Below the pieces are notes generated by a model. That model did not search any database, had not been told where the DNA came from, and saw only the letters and a list, made by a program, of their open reading frames with translations. Positions 31,402-52,950 of a stretch of DNA of 64,000 bases are shown piece by piece. Position 1 is the stretch's first letter. Every line of letters begins with the position of its first letter. Position numbers and translations under genes: made by a program. Source of the DNA: Spirochaetales bacterium (GTDB taxonomy: Bacteria; Spirochaetota; Spirochaetia; JABEVK01); assembly GCA_947478845.1 (NCBI GenBank), contig CANJXC010000003.1, positions 241,659-305,658 on the forward strand, written 5' to 3'.

Positions 31402-31927
31402 GAAGGATTTCCTTTCGTTCCAGACCCCATTTGTAGCCTCCGAGCCCTCCGTCACCCCGGAGGACTCGGTGACACGGTACCAGCAGTGCTACCCGGTTTT
31501 TGGCGCACGCCGAGGCAACGGCGCGAACCGCTTTGGGTCGTCCGAGAGCCTGGGCCACTTCGCTGTAACTTCGCACCTCACCGGCCGCTATCGTTTGAAG
31601 GTATTGCCAAACCGACCTCTGAAACGTGGTTCCTCGGAGATCCAAGGGTAGGTTTGGTAATGCCGTGCCCTCGAGGAACTCCACGATCGCTTTTGTCCAA
31701 CGCGTAAACTGCGGTGCCGCAGGAATGGGCACCGGTTCAATAGTGGCATGACTAAACTCCGACCCGAGGGCAGCAAGAAGGCCGTCCCGGTCGTTGGAAA
31801 ACTGAAGGAAGCAAATGCCGCGGTCAGTGGCTCCTAGGCCGAGCCATCCCAGGCGGGTGAGAGAATCTGCGAAAAACACCCGGGCTGGCAACGCTAGGTT
31901 TCGAGGCTCAACAGGCACCTTCGTCAT
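31376..31927 (-). CDS. ogt: Methylated-DNA--protein-cysteine methyltransferase
   Basis: 183 residues. The active site VPCHRVL and the following GDGGLGGYKWGLERK block are exact for O6-alkylguanine-DNA alkyltransferase, which takes the alkyl group onto its Cys in a suicidal repair reaction; the helix-turn-helix part GEVRSYSEVAQALGRPKAVRAVASA precedes it. ATG 31927 is chosen because it overlaps the stop of the desaturase gene by 4 bp; the longer frame upstream is the desaturase's shadow. A short relic of a second ogt-like gene lies at 63139-63186. Confidence 0.93.
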   Translation of the reverse strand: MTKVPVEPRNLALPARVFFADSLTRLGWLGLGATDRGICFLQFSNDRDGLLAALGSEFSHATIEPVPIPAAPQFTRWTKAIVEFLEGTALPNLPLDLRGTTFQRSVWQYLQTIAAGEVRSYSEVAQALGRPKAVRAVASACAKNRVALLVPCHRVLRGDGGLGGYKWGLERKEILLSHERAMR

Positions 31928-33402
31928 CTTCCTATTTGTGCGCTGGCGATTTTGGCACTGAGCAATACGACCGGCATTCCGGCACCCGGATGGCCGCCTC
32001 CGCTCACAAACCAAAGACCTTTGTGTCGAGTGCTTTGGTTGGGGTGGCGATTGAAGGCCGCCATGGTTGAGTTCGACGACATCCCGTAGATGCTGCCGAA
32101 AGAACTGCCGGTGAGACGCTCGATGCCTGGTGGGTCGAGAACTTCCTCGTGAACCAGATGCTCCCGGACGGACTTGCCTAAGAGTTTTTCAATTTTATCG
32201 AGCACAACCTCGCGATTTTGCGCCGCCAAGGAAGCCCAGTCTTGCCCCCGATTGGGAGGCACATTGACCAAAATAAACCAGTTTTCGCAACCTTCGGGCG
32301 CGTCGCCGGGGGTCAACTTGGAGGTGATGTTGAGGTAAACCGTCGGGTCCTCGGCGGTAATGCCTTGGTCAAAGAGTTGGGCAAACTCCTTTTGGTAGTC
32401 GCCGGAAAAAAAGATGTTGTGGAGTCCGAGTTCGGGGAACGACTTCTTCACGCCCCACGTGTACACCAGCCCTGAAGACGAGGGTTGGAGTTTCCGGTAG
32501 CGTTTGGCCCAGGGCGAGTTTTCGTCTCCGAGCAGTTGGTAGGTCTTGAGCACATCCGAGTTCGACACCACGACGTCGGCTTCATAGCTCCCCTTGTCGG
32601 TCACAATTCCGGTTACCCGGCCCCCCTGGCGAGTAATTTGGGTGACGGTTTCGTTGTAATGGTAAAGGGCCCCTTTTTCACGGCCTAACTGCTCGATGGC
32701 CGTAGGAAGGGCATAAATACCTTCATTAACCCCCGAACCGCCTAAACTGTATTCCAGCCACGGGATAATGCCCAAGGTTCCTGGGGTTTTGTAGGGCGAA
32801 GACCCGTTGTAGGTAGCGTAGCGGCCAAAGAGTTGGAGCATCTTGGCGTTGTCGAAGTACCGGCGGTTCATCCCATCAAGGGTTGTAAACACGTCCAGAA
32901 AAGGCATGCGCAATATGCCCCGCAACCCTTCCGGGCCCAACCAGGTGGCCACCGATTGAAGGCTTTTTTCGAGGAACAACGTGCCGGCGGTCTCATACAG
33001 GAACTTCAAGTGCCGAAAGTACTTTTCTAACGACCTTTGGCTAGCCCAGCCTCGGGAACTGAGGGCAGAGATTGCCCCTTCCACCGAACCCGGCATGGCC
33101 AGGGTGTCCCCGTCTTCAAACCAGTAGTGGCAAATCGTATCGAGTTTCGTCAGAGGTACCCTCTGGTGAAAATCGGCCCCGCAATCGCGGAAAAGCTCTT
33201 CGAACACGGGCACCAGGGTGAGGTTGCTAGGCCCAGTATCGAACCGGTAGCCACCCCTGTTGGCGGTAAAGGCCTTGCCGCCCGGTCCGCTGCGGCGGTC
33301 GAACACTTCTACCTGCCAACCTTGGTTCGACAGGCGCGCGGCTGTTGCCAAGCCCCCCAAACCAGCGCCCACAATCAGAGCGCGCTTTCGTGCTGCCTGC
33401 AT
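31924..33402 (-). CDS. Phytoene desaturase-family FAD oxidoreductase (CrtI/CrtD-like)
   Basis: 492 residues. ALIVGAGLGGLATAARLSNQGWQVEVFDRRSGPGGKA is the FAD-binding dinucleotide fold, and the C-terminal GLWFVSGGGHPGAGMPVVLLSAKI is the carotenoid-desaturase signature. The enzyme would desaturate or isomerise a carotenoid; whether it is CrtI, CrtD or a diapocarotenoid type cannot be decided. No crtB, crtE, crtY or blh is in the window. It is translationally coupled to ogt, an odd pairing that may reflect light or oxidative stress control. It could supply pigment for the rhodopsin encoded 19 kb away, which is inference. Confidence 0.85.
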   Translation of the reverse strand: MQAARKRALIVGAGLGGLATAARLSNQGWQVEVFDRRSGPGGKAFTANRGGYRFDTGPSNLTLVPVFEELFRDCGADFHQRVPLTKLDTICHYWFEDGDTLAMPGSVEGAISALSSRGWASQRSLEKYFRHLKFLYETAGTLFLEKSLQSVATWLGPEGLRGILRMPFLDVFTTLDGMNRRYFDNAKMLQLFGRYATYNGSSPYKTPGTLGIIPWLEYSLGGSGVNEGIYALPTAIEQLGREKGALYHYNETVTQITRQGGRVTGIVTDKGSYEADVVVSNSDVLKTYQLLGDENSPWAKRYRKLQPSSSGLVYTWGVKKSFPELGLHNIFFSGDYQKEFAQLFDQGITAEDPTVYLNITSKLTPGDAPEGCENWFILVNVPPNRGQDWASLAAQNREVVLDKIEKLLGKSVREHLVHEEVLDPPGIERLTGSSFGSIYGMSSNSTMAAFNRHPNQSTRHKGLWFVSGGGHPGAGMPVVLLSAKIASAQIGR

Positions 33403-49063: not shown

Positions 49064-49098
49064 GATTGTAGTATAATTGCTATGTAGTATTAATGCAA
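49063..49098 (-). promoter_or_regulatory. Promoter and repeat operator of the XRE operon
   Basis: Minus strand: TTGCAT (49098-49093), 17-bp spacer, TATACT (49075-49070). Two GTAGTAT repeats on the + strand (49068-49074 and 49084-49090) start 16 bp apart and cover the -10 and spacer, so XRE binding would repress. Confidence 0.65.
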
Positions 49099-49626
49099 CA
49101 CCCTAAAGATCGCACGCGCCACGGCTTCACGGGAAGCGAGCTCGGGATGCGCTCCAGCATAACAGAGCACACCCAAGAGCCCAGCTATTCGGTATTCCAA
49201 AACGAGGTCGCGCTCCAAGGGACCTTCTGGCAAAAGTGCCGACTTCAGTGCGGGCGTATTTTCAATACGTAAAATCGCCGCCTTGGTTTCGTCGATGAGC
49301 CGCCTCCGGAACGAGGGGTCGCCGTTTTCTCCCAAGAGCACGTTGTAGTAAGACGCCTTTTCTTCGTATAACGCCAAAAAGGTCTGCAGAAAGGCGGAGG
49401 ATGGCTCAGCGCTCGTCAAGACAGGCGGCAACTCTTCGAGGTTGGGGAGGCATCGTTGCTCGAGTTCGCGTAAGCAAGCCTGAACGTCGTCGAAGTGTTC
49501 GTAGAAAGTACTGCGGTTGTAGCCGGCTTTGGCGGCCACTTCTTTTACGGTGATGTGCTCGATGCCGGCCTGGCAATAGAGGCCCCAAAAGGCCTCGAGT
49601 AAGTGGACACGCGCTTTTTCCGACAA
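49090..49626 (-). CDS. TetR-family transcriptional regulator
   Basis: 178 residues from TTG 49626, chosen because GGGAGGAA stands just before it; the frame also opens at GTG 49659, inside a palindrome. The N-terminal HTH (ITVKEVAAKAGYNRSTFYEHFDDVQACL) is typical TetR; the rest is a helical ligand domain. It is divergent from the glycosyltransferase gene, and the inverted repeat CCAACA-CGT-TGTTGG between them is a likely operator. Confidence 0.9.
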   Translation of the reverse strand: MSEKARVHLLEAFWGLYCQAGIEHITVKEVAAKAGYNRSTFYEHFDDVQACLRELEQRCLPNLEELPPVLTSAEPSSAFLQTFLALYEEKASYYNVLLGENGDPSFRRRLIDETKAAILRIENTPALKSALLPEGPLERDLVLEYRIAGLLGVLCYAGAHPELASREAVARAIFRVLH

Positions 49627-49652
49627 AGTTCCTCCCTGTGTTGGTTGATTCC

Positions 49653-49667
49653 CCAACACGTTGTTGG
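49653..49667. promoter_or_regulatory. Probable TetR operator
   Basis: CCAACACGTTGTTGG: perfect 6-bp arms and a 3-base centre between the TetR gene and the glycosyltransferase gene. The position suits repression of both. Confidence 0.6.
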
Positions 49668-49691
49668 AATACTACAGCGGATGAGGCCCCC

Positions 49692-50963
49692 ATGATCACC
49701 ATCCTATGTTCTGGCACTCGTGGCGACGTTCAGCCCTACTTGGCGCTGGCCCAAGAACTCCAAAAGCTCGGGTTGGCCACGCGCATTGCCACCAACCACG
49801 ACTTCGAGGCCTTTGTGCGCGGTTACGGGCTCGATTTTTACCCCATTGCCGTAGATTTCGCCTCTGCTGGGGTGGACCCTGAAATGGTGCGCCAGGCCCA
49901 GCGGGCCGACAACCTGCTGAAAATGGTGGGCACCTTTCAAAAGATGAAGGCCTACGGAGTGCACATGGTGCAGGCCTACCACGAGGCTTGCCTTGGCAGC
50001 GACGCCTTGGTGTACCATCCCGGGCTTACCATTGGTTATTTTATGGCCCAGCAGTTGGGAATCCCGTCGATTCTCGCAAGCCCTTTCCCGTTGCACCGCA
50101 CATCCTTAAGGCCTTCGGTGGTGCTCTATGGCAAGGCGCCAAACTGGGGCCCGATCAACCGCCTGAGCTATGGTGCGCTTCAAGGTATGCTTTGGATGGC
50201 CTCCGGGGCGTCGCTGGCGCCGTTTTGGAAGCAGAAATACGGCAAACTTCCACCCGGCTTTGGCCAACCCTTTGAGAAGCACACTACCACCCGTTTGCCG
50301 GCCCTTGCCTCGTGCAGCGAGTTCGTCTTCTCAAGGCCTACCGATTGGAACGCCAACGTTCATCAAACCGGGTACTGGTTCGTGGAAGAGCCCGAAGCCT
50401 ACCAACCCTCGGCCGAATTGACCGAGTTCCTGTCGGCTGGCGAAAAACCAGTCTATGTGGGCTTCGGCTCGATGTTCCACAAAGGCGACACGGAAACAGT
50501 GGGACGAACGGTGGTCGAGGGGCTCTTACTTGCCGGAAAACGCGGTGTAATCAACGGCATGAGCGGGCTTAAACTTCCCGAAGGAATGCTCGCTGTAGAA
50601 GGTGTTCCGCACTCTTGGCTGTTCCCCCGCATGGCAGCGGTGTGTCACCATGGCGGAGCCGGAACCTCGGCGGCGGGCTTTCGAGCCGGGGTACCGAGTG
50701 TCATTGTACCCTTCGCGCTCGACCAATTCGCTTGGGCGCAGCGGGCGTTTGAACTCGGAGTAGGGTCGCCTCCGCTGCCGGTAAAGAAGCTGACCGCAGC
50801 CAAGTTGGCCGAGGCGCTCAATCTCGCGCTTCAAACTAGGGTTATCACGGCCGCCGCGGAGCTCGCTCGAGCCATCGCCACCGAACACGGAGCCCGGGAC
50901 GGCGCGAGGGTTATCGCCGCGTCGCTTGCCACAGCACGTGAGGCCTCGAAGTTTCATGCCTAG
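49692..50963 (+). CDS. GT1/GT28-type glycosyltransferase (sterol/lipid glucosyltransferase-like)
   Basis: 423 residues. The N-terminal ILCSGTRGDVQPYLALAQEL and the C-terminal CHHGGAGTSAAGFRAGVPSVIVPFALDQFAWAQ are the signatures of the UGT80-like group that glucosylates sterols, hopanoids, rhamnolipid precursors or carotenoids. It has a GT-B fold and needs a UDP-sugar. ATG 49692 follows GAGG. Regulated by the divergent TetR protein. In this setting a carotenoid or membrane-lipid acceptor would be interesting because a rhodopsin gene lies 1 kb away, but nothing in the sequence fixes the acceptor. Confidence 0.85.
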   Translation: MITILCSGTRGDVQPYLALAQELQKLGLATRIATNHDFEAFVRGYGLDFYPIAVDFASAGVDPEMVRQAQRADNLLKMVGTFQKMKAYGVHMVQAYHEACLGSDALVYHPGLTIGYFMAQQLGIPSILASPFPLHRTSLRPSVVLYGKAPNWGPINRLSYGALQGMLWMASGASLAPFWKQKYGKLPPGFGQPFEKHTTTRLPALASCSEFVFSRPTDWNANVHQTGYWFVEEPEAYQPSAELTEFLSAGEKPVYVGFGSMFHKGDTETVGRTVVEGLLLAGKRGVINGMSGLKLPEGMLAVEGVPHSWLFPRMAAVCHHGGAGTSAAGFRAGVPSVIVPFALDQFAWAQRAFELGVGSPPLPVKKLTAAKLAEALNLALQTRVITAAAELARAIATEHGARDGARVIAASLATAREASKFHA

Positions 50964-50988: not shown

Positions 50989-51873
50989 TTAGGTCAATAG
51001 TTCGCCTAGGCGGGTCCGCAAGGAGTTCATGGAACCCACGTACTCGAGTCCTGCGTCGGAAAGGGTTTGGGAGCTCTCCCGGTCGATTCGTCCTCCGAAG
51101 AACACGGGAATAAACGCTGGGGTTAGGCGCCTCACAAGGATGGCTTCGGCCACGGCCTGAACCATGGTCCCGGCGGCTTTCGCGGTGAGCAAAATGCAAT
51201 ACACCACCGCCTTGGCCTTCATGCTCACAGCGGCAAAGGCAAGTTCTTCAGCCGGGGTGCCAGGGCTGAAGCGCACCGGTCGCCAACCTGCAGAAGTGGC
51301 ATGAATGGCCGAACCGAGCTGGCCTGGTTCATGTTCGAAACCAGCAGGGCTTCCGATCACTACGTTGGGAGCATTTTCTGAACGCTTGCCTGAGGCATCC
51401 ACCAGCGCCAGCAGGTCCCGCAATCGTGCTTGGGCAAACGAGAGGTGAACTTGGCCCAAACGTCCTTCGGCAATGGCGAGCTTGACCCCGCTGACAAAGG
51501 GAAAAACAAAACCATCAATGAAATCCAGTCGCCCAAAAGCTTTGAGCGCTCGCTGCAGTTCCTGATCCAACAACACCGCGTCGAGCAGGGCGAGGTAAGA
51601 CACAGCCTTGTCCACCGTCGATACACCGGTTTGCTTACTCGATAGTTCCTTGAGTTCAGCCAAGGGAAGCATTGCGATCGATCCTATGGAATGGCCGGCA
51701 GCGCGGGCCGTGGCCAGCAACTCAAGTCGCAACAATTGCTCGGTAGAATAACGCCGTTGTCCTGAGGCATTGCGAAGCGGTCGCACCGCAGCGTAACGGT
51801 TTTCCCAAGCCCTCAATACGTGAACTGATAGTCCCGTTCGTAGCGATACAAAACGTATTGGGTATTCACTCAT
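50989..51873 (-). CDS. MerR/B12-type (CarH/LitR-like) regulator, light-sensing motif degenerate
   Basis: 294 residues. MerR HTH at residues 5-70 (IRFVSLRTGLSVHVLRAWENRYAAV...RRYSTEQL), a helical linker (about 90-160), and a C-terminal B12-binding Rossmann-type domain (about 165-290) with HEPG at 181-184, the HxxG of the cobalamin-binding motif. The four-helix part carries AIAEGRLGQVHLSFAQ where photosensory CarH proteins have W-x9-E-H; Trp is Ile134 and Glu-His is Leu144-Ser145. So B12 may still bind, but the AdoB12 light reaction may be lost or changed. ATG 51873 has AAGG upstream; a longer frame opens at 51930. Divergent from the rhodopsin gene, so its likely target. Confidence 0.8.
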   Translation of the reverse strand: MSEYPIRFVSLRTGLSVHVLRAWENRYAAVRPLRNASGQRRYSTEQLLRLELLATARAAGHSIGSIAMLPLAELKELSSKQTGVSTVDKAVSYLALLDAVLLDQELQRALKAFGRLDFIDGFVFPFVSGVKLAIAEGRLGQVHLSFAQARLRDLLALVDASGKRSENAPNVVIGSPAGFEHEPGQLGSAIHATSAGWRPVRFSPGTPAEELAFAAVSMKAKAVVYCILLTAKAAGTMVQAVAEAILVRRLTPAFIPVFFGGRIDRESSQTLSDAGLEYVGSMNSLRTRLGELLT

Positions 51874-51923: not shown

Positions 51924-51949
51924 CTAACAAAGGCTAACAGGTTTGTTAG
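51924..51949. promoter_or_regulatory. Inverted-repeat operator between regulator and rhodopsin
   Basis: CTAACAAA and TTTGTTAG (51924-51931 and 51942-51949) form a perfect 8-bp inverted repeat with a 10-base spacer. A further CTAACA at 51934-51939 stands 10 bp after the first. It lies between the two divergent promoters and is the best candidate site for the MerR-type regulator. Confidence 0.65.
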
Positions 51950-51957
51950 ATACAAGC

Positions 51958-51986
51958 TTGACGGCTCAATGAAGGAGGTTTATCGT
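51958..51986 (+). promoter_or_regulatory. Promoter of the rhodopsin gene
   Basis: TTGACG (51958-51963), 17-bp spacer, TATCGT (51981-51986). The start point would be near 51993, giving a leader of about 58 nt before GTG 52051. The inverted-repeat operator is 8 bp upstream of the -35. Confidence 0.65.
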
Positions 51987-52050
51987 TCTGGTTACCCTGC
52001 GGAACGAGACGTTTGTCGAGAAACCGCAAAATAGATTAAGGAGGATTTCA

Positions 52051-52878
52051 GTGCTCAGTCTTGATTTTGCCCAATACCAGACCGTTTATAACGTTCTGTC
52101 GTTCGGCTTGGCCTCAATGGGGGCCACTCTTGTGTTCCTTATGGCGGTTCAGGGCCGTGTTTTGCCCCGCTACCGTCAGGCCTTGGTAGTGTCGGCTATC
52201 GTTTGTCTGATTGCCGCTTATCACTACATCCGTATTTTCAATTCCTTCACCGAAGCCTACGTGGCCAAGGATGCGGGAGCTGCGGTGAGCGCCGTCGGTG
52301 CCGTGAGCTATTTCCTGGTCAATGGCCCCGGCTTCAACGAAGCTTACCGCTACATTGACTGGCTCCTCACCGTGCCTCTGCTCTTGTTCGAAACCATTGC
52401 CGTCTTGGCCTTGGCGCCTGCGCTCCGGTCGAACCTGATGTGGAAGTTGATCCCTGCTGCTGCCTTGATGATCGTTTTGGGCTATCCCGGCGAGATTTCG
52501 TTGGATAACACAGTTCGCGCCATCTGGGGTGCCTTGTCGACTATCCCGTTCCTCTACATTCTCTACGTTCTGTGGGTTGAGCTCGGACGCTCTCAAGCCT
52601 CACAGCCGGAACAGGTCCGCAAAGACCTCAACGTGCTGCGGTTGCTGCTCTTGGCCACCTGGGGTGTTTACCCGATCGCTTACCTCATGCCTCAGCTGGG
52701 CTTCAGCGGAGCCGACGCCTTCGTGTACAAGCAAGTGGGCTACTCCGTCGCCGACGTGCTGGCCAAGTGTCTGTTCGGGCTCTTGATTTACAAGATCGCC
52801 CGCGAGAAGAGCTTCCATGACGACCATGCCTTCGCCGATCAGGAAGTCAAGGCCGCTCCTTCCTCCGAGTCGAAATAA
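52051..52878 (+). CDS. Light-driven proton-pump rhodopsin, xanthorhodopsin/Gloeobacter-rhodopsin type
   Basis: 275 residues with seven membrane helices. Retinal Lys239 and Asp235 are in helix G (YSVADVLAKCLFG). Helix C reads RYIDWLLTVPLLLFE: acceptor Asp103, Thr107 and carboxylic donor Glu114 (DTE pattern), with Leu111 at the colour switch, so green absorption is expected. His58 in helix B (AAYHYIRIF) pairs with the acceptor. Gly160 in IWGALSTIPFLY is where Gloeobacter rhodopsin has the glycine that opens the carotenoid-antenna window; proteorhodopsins have Trp there. The spacing Asp-Gly (57) and Asp-Lys (136) equals that of Gloeobacter rhodopsin. Consensus AAGGAGG precedes GTG 52051. Confidence 0.95.
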   Translation: MLSLDFAQYQTVYNVLSFGLASMGATLVFLMAVQGRVLPRYRQALVVSAIVCLIAAYHYIRIFNSFTEAYVAKDAGAAVSAVGAVSYFLVNGPGFNEAYRYIDWLLTVPLLLFETIAVLALAPALRSNLMWKLIPAAALMIVLGYPGEISLDNTVRAIWGALSTIPFLYILYVLWVELGRSQASQPEQVRKDLNVLRLLLLATWGVYPIAYLMPQLGFSGADAFVYKQVGYSVADVLAKCLFGLLIYKIAREKSFHDDHAFADQEVKAAPSSESK

Positions 52879-52916
52879 CTGCTCGGGCTTTCGAACAAAA
52901 GGTTTGGACTTAGCTA

Positions 52917-52950
52917 GAAGGCGGGTGCTACGGCACCCGCCTTCTTTTAT
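52917..52950 (+). terminator. Strong intrinsic terminator after the rhodopsin gene
   Basis: A perfect 12-bp stem GAAGGCGGGTGC/GCACCCGCCTTC with loop TACG, then TTTTAT. It ends the single-gene rhodopsin transcript 39 bp after the stop. Confidence 0.95.

Follow-up and report, generated by a model that had tools for sequence, protein, structure and literature searches.

A spirochaete genome with an actinorhodopsin-type rhodopsin gene divergent from a CarH-like MerR regulator gene

The rhodopsins closest to the one described here are actinorhodopsins of freshwater Actinobacteria, among them RlActR of Rhodoluna lacicola (PDB 9hfk) and ActR-13023, which pumps protons and is reported to bind carotenoid (PMC8113403). 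The other solved sequences nearest to it are psXR (9wfa), Gloeobacter rhodopsin (GR, 6nwd) and the Kin4B8 xanthorhodopsin (7ytb, 8i2z). At the carotenoid position a glycine is found in Salinibacter xanthorhodopsin (XR, 3ddl; Gly156), GR (Gly178) and Kin4B8 (Gly153) (PMC9151804, PMC12308411), and the residue there is Phe in green and Trp in blue proteorhodopsin (PMC9151804). The regulator gene beside the rhodopsin gene recalls the LitR/CarH family, in which an adenosylcobalamin (AdoCbl) light signature, GxxW, EH, GxxH and GxxxP, marks CarH and class I LitR (PMC11796333), and in which B12-independent LitR classes also exist (PMC9758184).

An actinorhodopsin in an unexpected host

The window, a stretch of 64,000 nucleotides from a draft spirochaete genome, contains a known rhodopsin type in an unexpected host. 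FlaA, the periplasmic-flagellum protein, is a spirochaete protein; we take the host to be a spirochaete because its genome has three FlaA genes. The same search was positive in 32 of 41 genomes, most relatives among them, and in none of 14 control genomes.

The rhodopsin reading frame begins with GTG, and its product matched Pfam Bac_rhodopsin with 134.8 bits (cut-off 24.6; E 4e-39), so the match is not due to chance. Pfam, alignment and the fold match to solved rhodopsins confirmed a seven-helix domain with the retinal lysine, Lys239. Alignment with solved rhodopsins placed His58, Asp103, Thr107, Glu114, Gly160, Tyr211, Asp235 and Lys239 at the key sites, with the conserved His and the DTE motif both present. 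The residues listed in a first-pass annotation of this DNA (His58, Asp103/Thr107/Glu114, Gly160 in IWGALSTIPF, Lys239) were all where it had put them; its statement that ordinary proteorhodopsins have Trp at the Gly160 site holds for the blue form and fails for the green, which has Phe.

When each species was represented by one genome, a scan found rhodopsin relatives at 38 loci. The closest genomes, with rhodopsins 68-78% identical, were without exception actinobacterial or unnamed lake MAGs and included several Nanopelagicales, whose actinorhodopsins reach up to 78% identity with the window protein. Some lake MAG records with freshwater-type actinorhodopsins are titled Bifidobacterium breve or Streptomyces griseus (L004, L005, L011, L029). 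These titles are probably wrong, and given such odd titles the affiliation of the nearest actinorhodopsins was taken from the whole group.

In a maximum likelihood tree the window rhodopsin fell in a 15-row clade (99/99), the other rows of which are all actinobacterial or unnamed lake MAGs, and this clade was nested in a 29-row actinorhodopsin clade (100/100) that contains RlActR. Na+ pumps joined XR in the tree, a grouping that was flagged as a long-branch effect and left unused. The AlphaFold model (pLDDT 86.8) matched psXR, RlActR, GR, zeaxanthin-bound Kin4B8 and XR with TM scores of 0.84-0.87 by query length (0.84-0.86 for GR, psXR and XR). GR, psXR and XR have the key residues in common with the window rhodopsin, including the glycine and the Tyr207 equivalent, but are 48-56% identical to it and lie outside the actinorhodopsin clade. 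RlActR and ActR-13023 share its clade, DTE motif, His58 and glycine window. Taken together, the nearest sequences, the tree and the fold matches place the window rhodopsin among the actinorhodopsins, inside the wider xanthorhodopsin group. The first-pass reading of a xanthorhodopsin-type DTE proton pump stands as to the broad XR/GR/actinorhodopsin group and the DTE type, and is refined in that the protein is an actinorhodopsin from Actinobacteria and no sister of Salinibacter xanthorhodopsin. What sets it apart from the actinorhodopsins of freshwater Actinobacteria is a spirochaete host, a spirochaete-type MerR partner and a genome without Blh.

We consider it likely that the gene encodes a light-driven, outward proton pump of the actinorhodopsin branch that came from freshwater Actinobacteria, is adapted to the codon usage of its host, is transcribed alone with a MerR gene divergent from it, and depends on retinal from outside. 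In such a pump Lys239 would bind retinal, Asp103, paired with His58, would take the Schiff-base proton, Glu114 would re-donate a proton, and light would drive transport outward. The gene appears to be monocistronic, as the predicted promoter and terminator enclose it singly (Table 1); 0.5 matches to the promoter pattern are expected by shuffling. Very little is known of rhodopsin phototrophy among spirochaetes, and a complete, expressed-looking pump would add a lineage to those that capture light energy.

Table 1. Positions in the window of the rhodopsin gene, its predicted signals, the adjoining regulator gene and a carotenoid gene
Feature	Position	Strand	Basis
CrtD-like 1-hydroxycarotenoid 3,4-desaturase, native host carotenoid pathway	31924..33402	-	NF042421, 467.7 bits (cut-off 500)
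CarH-like MerR regulator, divergent from the rhodopsin gene	50989..51873	-	start 51873 by alignment with relatives
Putative operator CTAACA-N4-CTAACA-N4-TGTTAG (two direct boxes, one inverted), between the divergent genes	51924..51949	.	pattern match
Sigma-70-like promoter TTGACG-17-TATCGT, into the rhodopsin gene	51958..51986	+	consensus match only
Ribosome-binding site AAGGAGG	52038..52044	+	direct reading, just upstream of GTG
Actinorhodopsin-type DTE rhodopsin, 275 aa	52051..52878	+	residues, Pfam, tree, fold
Gly160 codon (in IWGALSTIPF)	52528..52530	+	alignment
Intrinsic terminator, 13-bp stem and T tail, 3' of the rhodopsin gene	52916..52945	+	predicted, strong

Carotenoids and retinal

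Fenestrated relatives of this protein raise the question of a carotenoid antenna, in which a host pigment at the Gly160 window would hand blue-green energy to retinal. Two carotenoid-site residues are present, Gly160, the glycine pointed out in the first-pass annotation, which aligns to XR Gly156, and Tyr211 at the Tyr207 position; with Kin4B8 the window rhodopsin has in common the glycine window, the equivalent of Tyr204 and the fold. Exposure of Gly160 was judged only from the fold match. In the same alignment Na+ pumps carry Gly at this position too, and Gly160 was accordingly rejected as proof of an antenna: a glycine there is necessary but not sufficient. Ser208 and Tyr209, which in Kin4B8 bind 3-hydroxy carotenoids, are replaced by Gln215 (polar, but neither Ser nor Thr) and Leu216 (hydrophobic); the pair is missing from XR and GR too, which use keto carotenoids.

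Genes for carotenoid synthesis were found in the host, among them crtB, crtI and a lycopene cyclase gene, which the first-pass annotation had suggested looking for. A crtI-crtB-crtYcd group is located on contig 18; a second crtI-type gene, above the NCBIfam CrtID cut-off, lies on contig 1 (L080:7915-9378) apart from other carotenoid genes; and a CruF homologue is encoded on contig 4, within a block that is conserved in a genome of the same genus. In other spirochaetes, orthologues of the CrtD-like protein encoded in the window adjoin crtI-crtB and a CruF-like gene. This gene set suggests monocyclic 1'-hydroxy carotenoids as the probable products of the host. The predicted pigment is 1'-hydroxytorulene-like, which would be the skeleton of salinixanthin without the 4-keto group that salinixanthin bears. 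Neither CrtW nor CrtO ketolase was found in the host genome, where the two full-length FA_desaturase matches were fatty-acid desaturase-like and the three CrtI-family proteins included no CrtO. On contig 18 (L058:10931-16971), genes for a methyltransferase, a type III polyketide synthase-like protein and an FAD monooxygenase precede crtI, crtB and the lycopene cyclase gene on one strand, possibly forming a single pigment or lipid cluster.

The first-pass view that the pump probably has an antenna is thus unsupported, given that glycine is insufficient, no CrtW or CrtO was recognised and the Kin4B8 pair is Gln215/Leu216 here. We regard an antenna as unlikely, even with Gly160 and Tyr211 conserved, a carotenoid binder reported in ActR-13023, and a host whose carotenoid enzymes comprise CrtB, a pair of CrtI type, a lycopene cyclase of CrtYcd type, and the CruF homologue and CrtD-like protein. 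Against these points, XR and GR use 4-keto carotenoids and no ketolase was found in the window's host, and Kin4B8 needs a 4-keto or 3-hydroxy ring and does not bind beta-carotene (PMC12308411). It is possible that the glycine window could take a carotenoid, be it a pigment with a modified ring that is still to be traced or one acquired from outside.

The supply of retinal is a separate matter. Blh (PF15461) was absent from the host genome, which is 99.75% complete, and the same model scored 126.7 bits with Blh of Polymorphobacter and 90-94 bits with actinobacterial Blh. RPE65-type carotenoid cleavage oxygenases were likewise absent from this genome. The outcome for blh, which the first-pass annotation had named together with the crt genes, leaves self-made retinal unsupported. 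With neither Blh nor a carotenoid cleavage oxygenase found in the host, retinal is probably scavenged from the surroundings; a divergent Blh or an unfamiliar retinal-forming enzyme is possible.

The same absences are compatible with an opsin that is mainly retinal-free and acts as a phospholipid scramblase. Nanopelagicus actinorhodopsin, when purified, scrambles lipids in the absence of retinal, an activity offered as an explanation for why some genomes encode an opsin but not the last step to retinal (PMC12805836). We find this reading improbable for the window protein, in which all photochemical residues are kept, needless for a pure scramblase; scrambling is also a moonlighting activity of several rhodopsins and hence does not explain why the gene was acquired. 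A proton pump fed with external retinal is the reading we prefer. In a host without retinal-making genes, retinal sharing in the plankton, or else a retinal-independent role, becomes directly testable.

The divergent MerR gene

The regulator resembles TtCarH and other members of the LitR/CarH family in its MerR N-terminal domain and overall layout, but scored 71.6 bits with the NCBIfam CarH model, far under the 400-bit cut-off. Its mechanical reading frame starts at 51930, and the start in Table 1 was preferred from the alignment of relatives. It differs from TtCarH-type regulators in the loss of GxxW and EH and in adjoining a rhodopsin gene rather than carotenoid genes.

Among 393 genomes of the phylum, its best relatives were MerR proteins encoded divergently from Na+-pump rhodopsin genes, in G418 (144 bits) and G431 (93 bits, best piece); the third-ranked relative reached 64 bits. 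A related MerR gene of G020, a genome outside the 393-genome sample, scored 81 bits and is not linked to a rhodopsin gene. The three rhodopsin-linked MerR proteins form a clade (99/97). Near actinobacterial rhodopsin genes no relatives of this MerR were found, and no rhodopsin gene was found within 6 kb of its best plasmid relative (Gemmatirosa).

In the AdoCbl light signature, GxxW and EH are missing from all three members of this clade, whereas rhodopsin-unlinked CarH-like proteins of G020 and G031 retain them. The window MerR, which has GxxH and shows SxxxP for GxxxP, was rejected as a standard B12 photoreceptor because the signature is lacking. As B12-independent LitR classes exist, it could respond to light by another route.

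In G431 (L054:92-2024) and G418 (L056:399-2280) an NDQ Na+-pump rhodopsin gene is accompanied by a divergent CarH-like MerR gene. These pairs share the MerR clade and the divergent layout with the window locus, but their pumps are of another type, with 25-29% identity to the window rhodopsin. Pumps of differing type beside one MerR clade indicate separate histories of regulator and pump.

The putative operator pattern, written after the site was seen, occurred once in the 64 kb and never in 100 shuffles. Upstream of the G418 MerR gene (L056:1317-1476) are three ACA boxes at an 11-bp pitch (TATACA, TGTACA, TGTACA), which we take to resemble the CarH operator pattern. An operator common to all three MerR-rhodopsin pairs was not established, the G418 TGTACA boxes being 11-bp-spaced and the CTAACA boxes of the window 10-bp-spaced. 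In our model the CarH-like MerR, devoid of the B12 light signature, would bind the shared intergenic region and control the singly transcribed rhodopsin gene.

More tentatively, and with somewhat less than even confidence, we propose that spirochaetes have a B12-independent branch of CarH/LitR devoted to rhodopsin genes, in which the regulator stays and the adjoining pump is exchanged (Na+ pumps twice, an imported H+ pump here). If true, this would amount to a plug-in control slot for phototrophy in spirochaetes. No description of a MerR-rhodopsin pairing was found in the literature searched, coverage of which was partial. The pairing rests on three cases and is the part most worth following, and the MerR partner is a candidate, open to test, for the little-understood means by which bacteria turn on rhodopsin genes.

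The conserved divergent pairing might also be read to mean that the rhodopsin senses light and signals to the adjoining MerR, and is not a pump. This is very improbable, since the full DTE set including the Glu donor is present, the partner rhodopsins of the other two spirochaetes carry the Na+-pump motif NDQ, and no transducer-like gene lies between the MerR and rhodopsin genes.

On the far side of the MerR gene, at 49090-50963 and apart from the rhodopsin unit, a TetR regulator gene is divergent from a gene for a GT1-type glycosyltransferase resembling macrolide glycosyltransferases. The best family models for the latter (49638-50963) were of rifamycin/macrolide type. A role as a CrtX-like partner was set aside, its gene being divergent from its own TetR gene and convergent with MerR.

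Distribution and gene transfer

No rhodopsin was found in 97 searched relatives of the host. Elsewhere in the phylum there were three among 393 genomes, 30-39% identical over the matched part: the NDQ-motif Na+-pump types of G418 and G431, and a proteorhodopsin in G170. The last (L055:1495-2280) is a DTE proteorhodopsin from another class of the phylum, with no MerR gene adjoining. With a spirochaete host and rhodopsins this rare in the phylum, the first-pass remark that such a pump would be notable in a spirochaete is borne out.

Because its relatives have no rhodopsin and the three others in the phylum are distant, the host most likely acquired the gene from freshwater actinobacteria. The actinobacterial pump gene would have entered the spirochaete and then adapted to its codon usage. 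Codon adaptation to the host was highest for the rhodopsin among the 17 window genes compared, which suggests that the transfer was not very recent or that the gene is highly expressed. A spirochaete pump of this kind would put on record a transfer from the abundant actinobacteria of fresh water.

The host genome comprises 2.99 Mb in 22 contigs. That an actinobacterial fragment was fused to a spirochaete contig during assembly, as the actinobacterial affinity of the nearest rhodopsins and the draft state of the genome might suggest, is scarcely credible for a gene that lies inside a 315,720-base contig (a position that counts against contamination, given as 1.3%), has the best host codon fit of the genes compared, and adjoins a MerR gene that has its best relatives among spirochaetes and no relative near actinorhodopsin loci.

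Carriage by phage was not indicated, as no relative was found on viral contigs. Plasmid rhodopsins were distant only (45% identity or less), and at the one plasmid rhodopsin locus opened no MerR gene stood beside the rhodopsin gene. On the Polymorphobacter plasmid NZ_CP080242.1 (L130:6001-7771) the rhodopsin gene is followed directly by blh, a mobile and complete retinal-rhodopsin unit.
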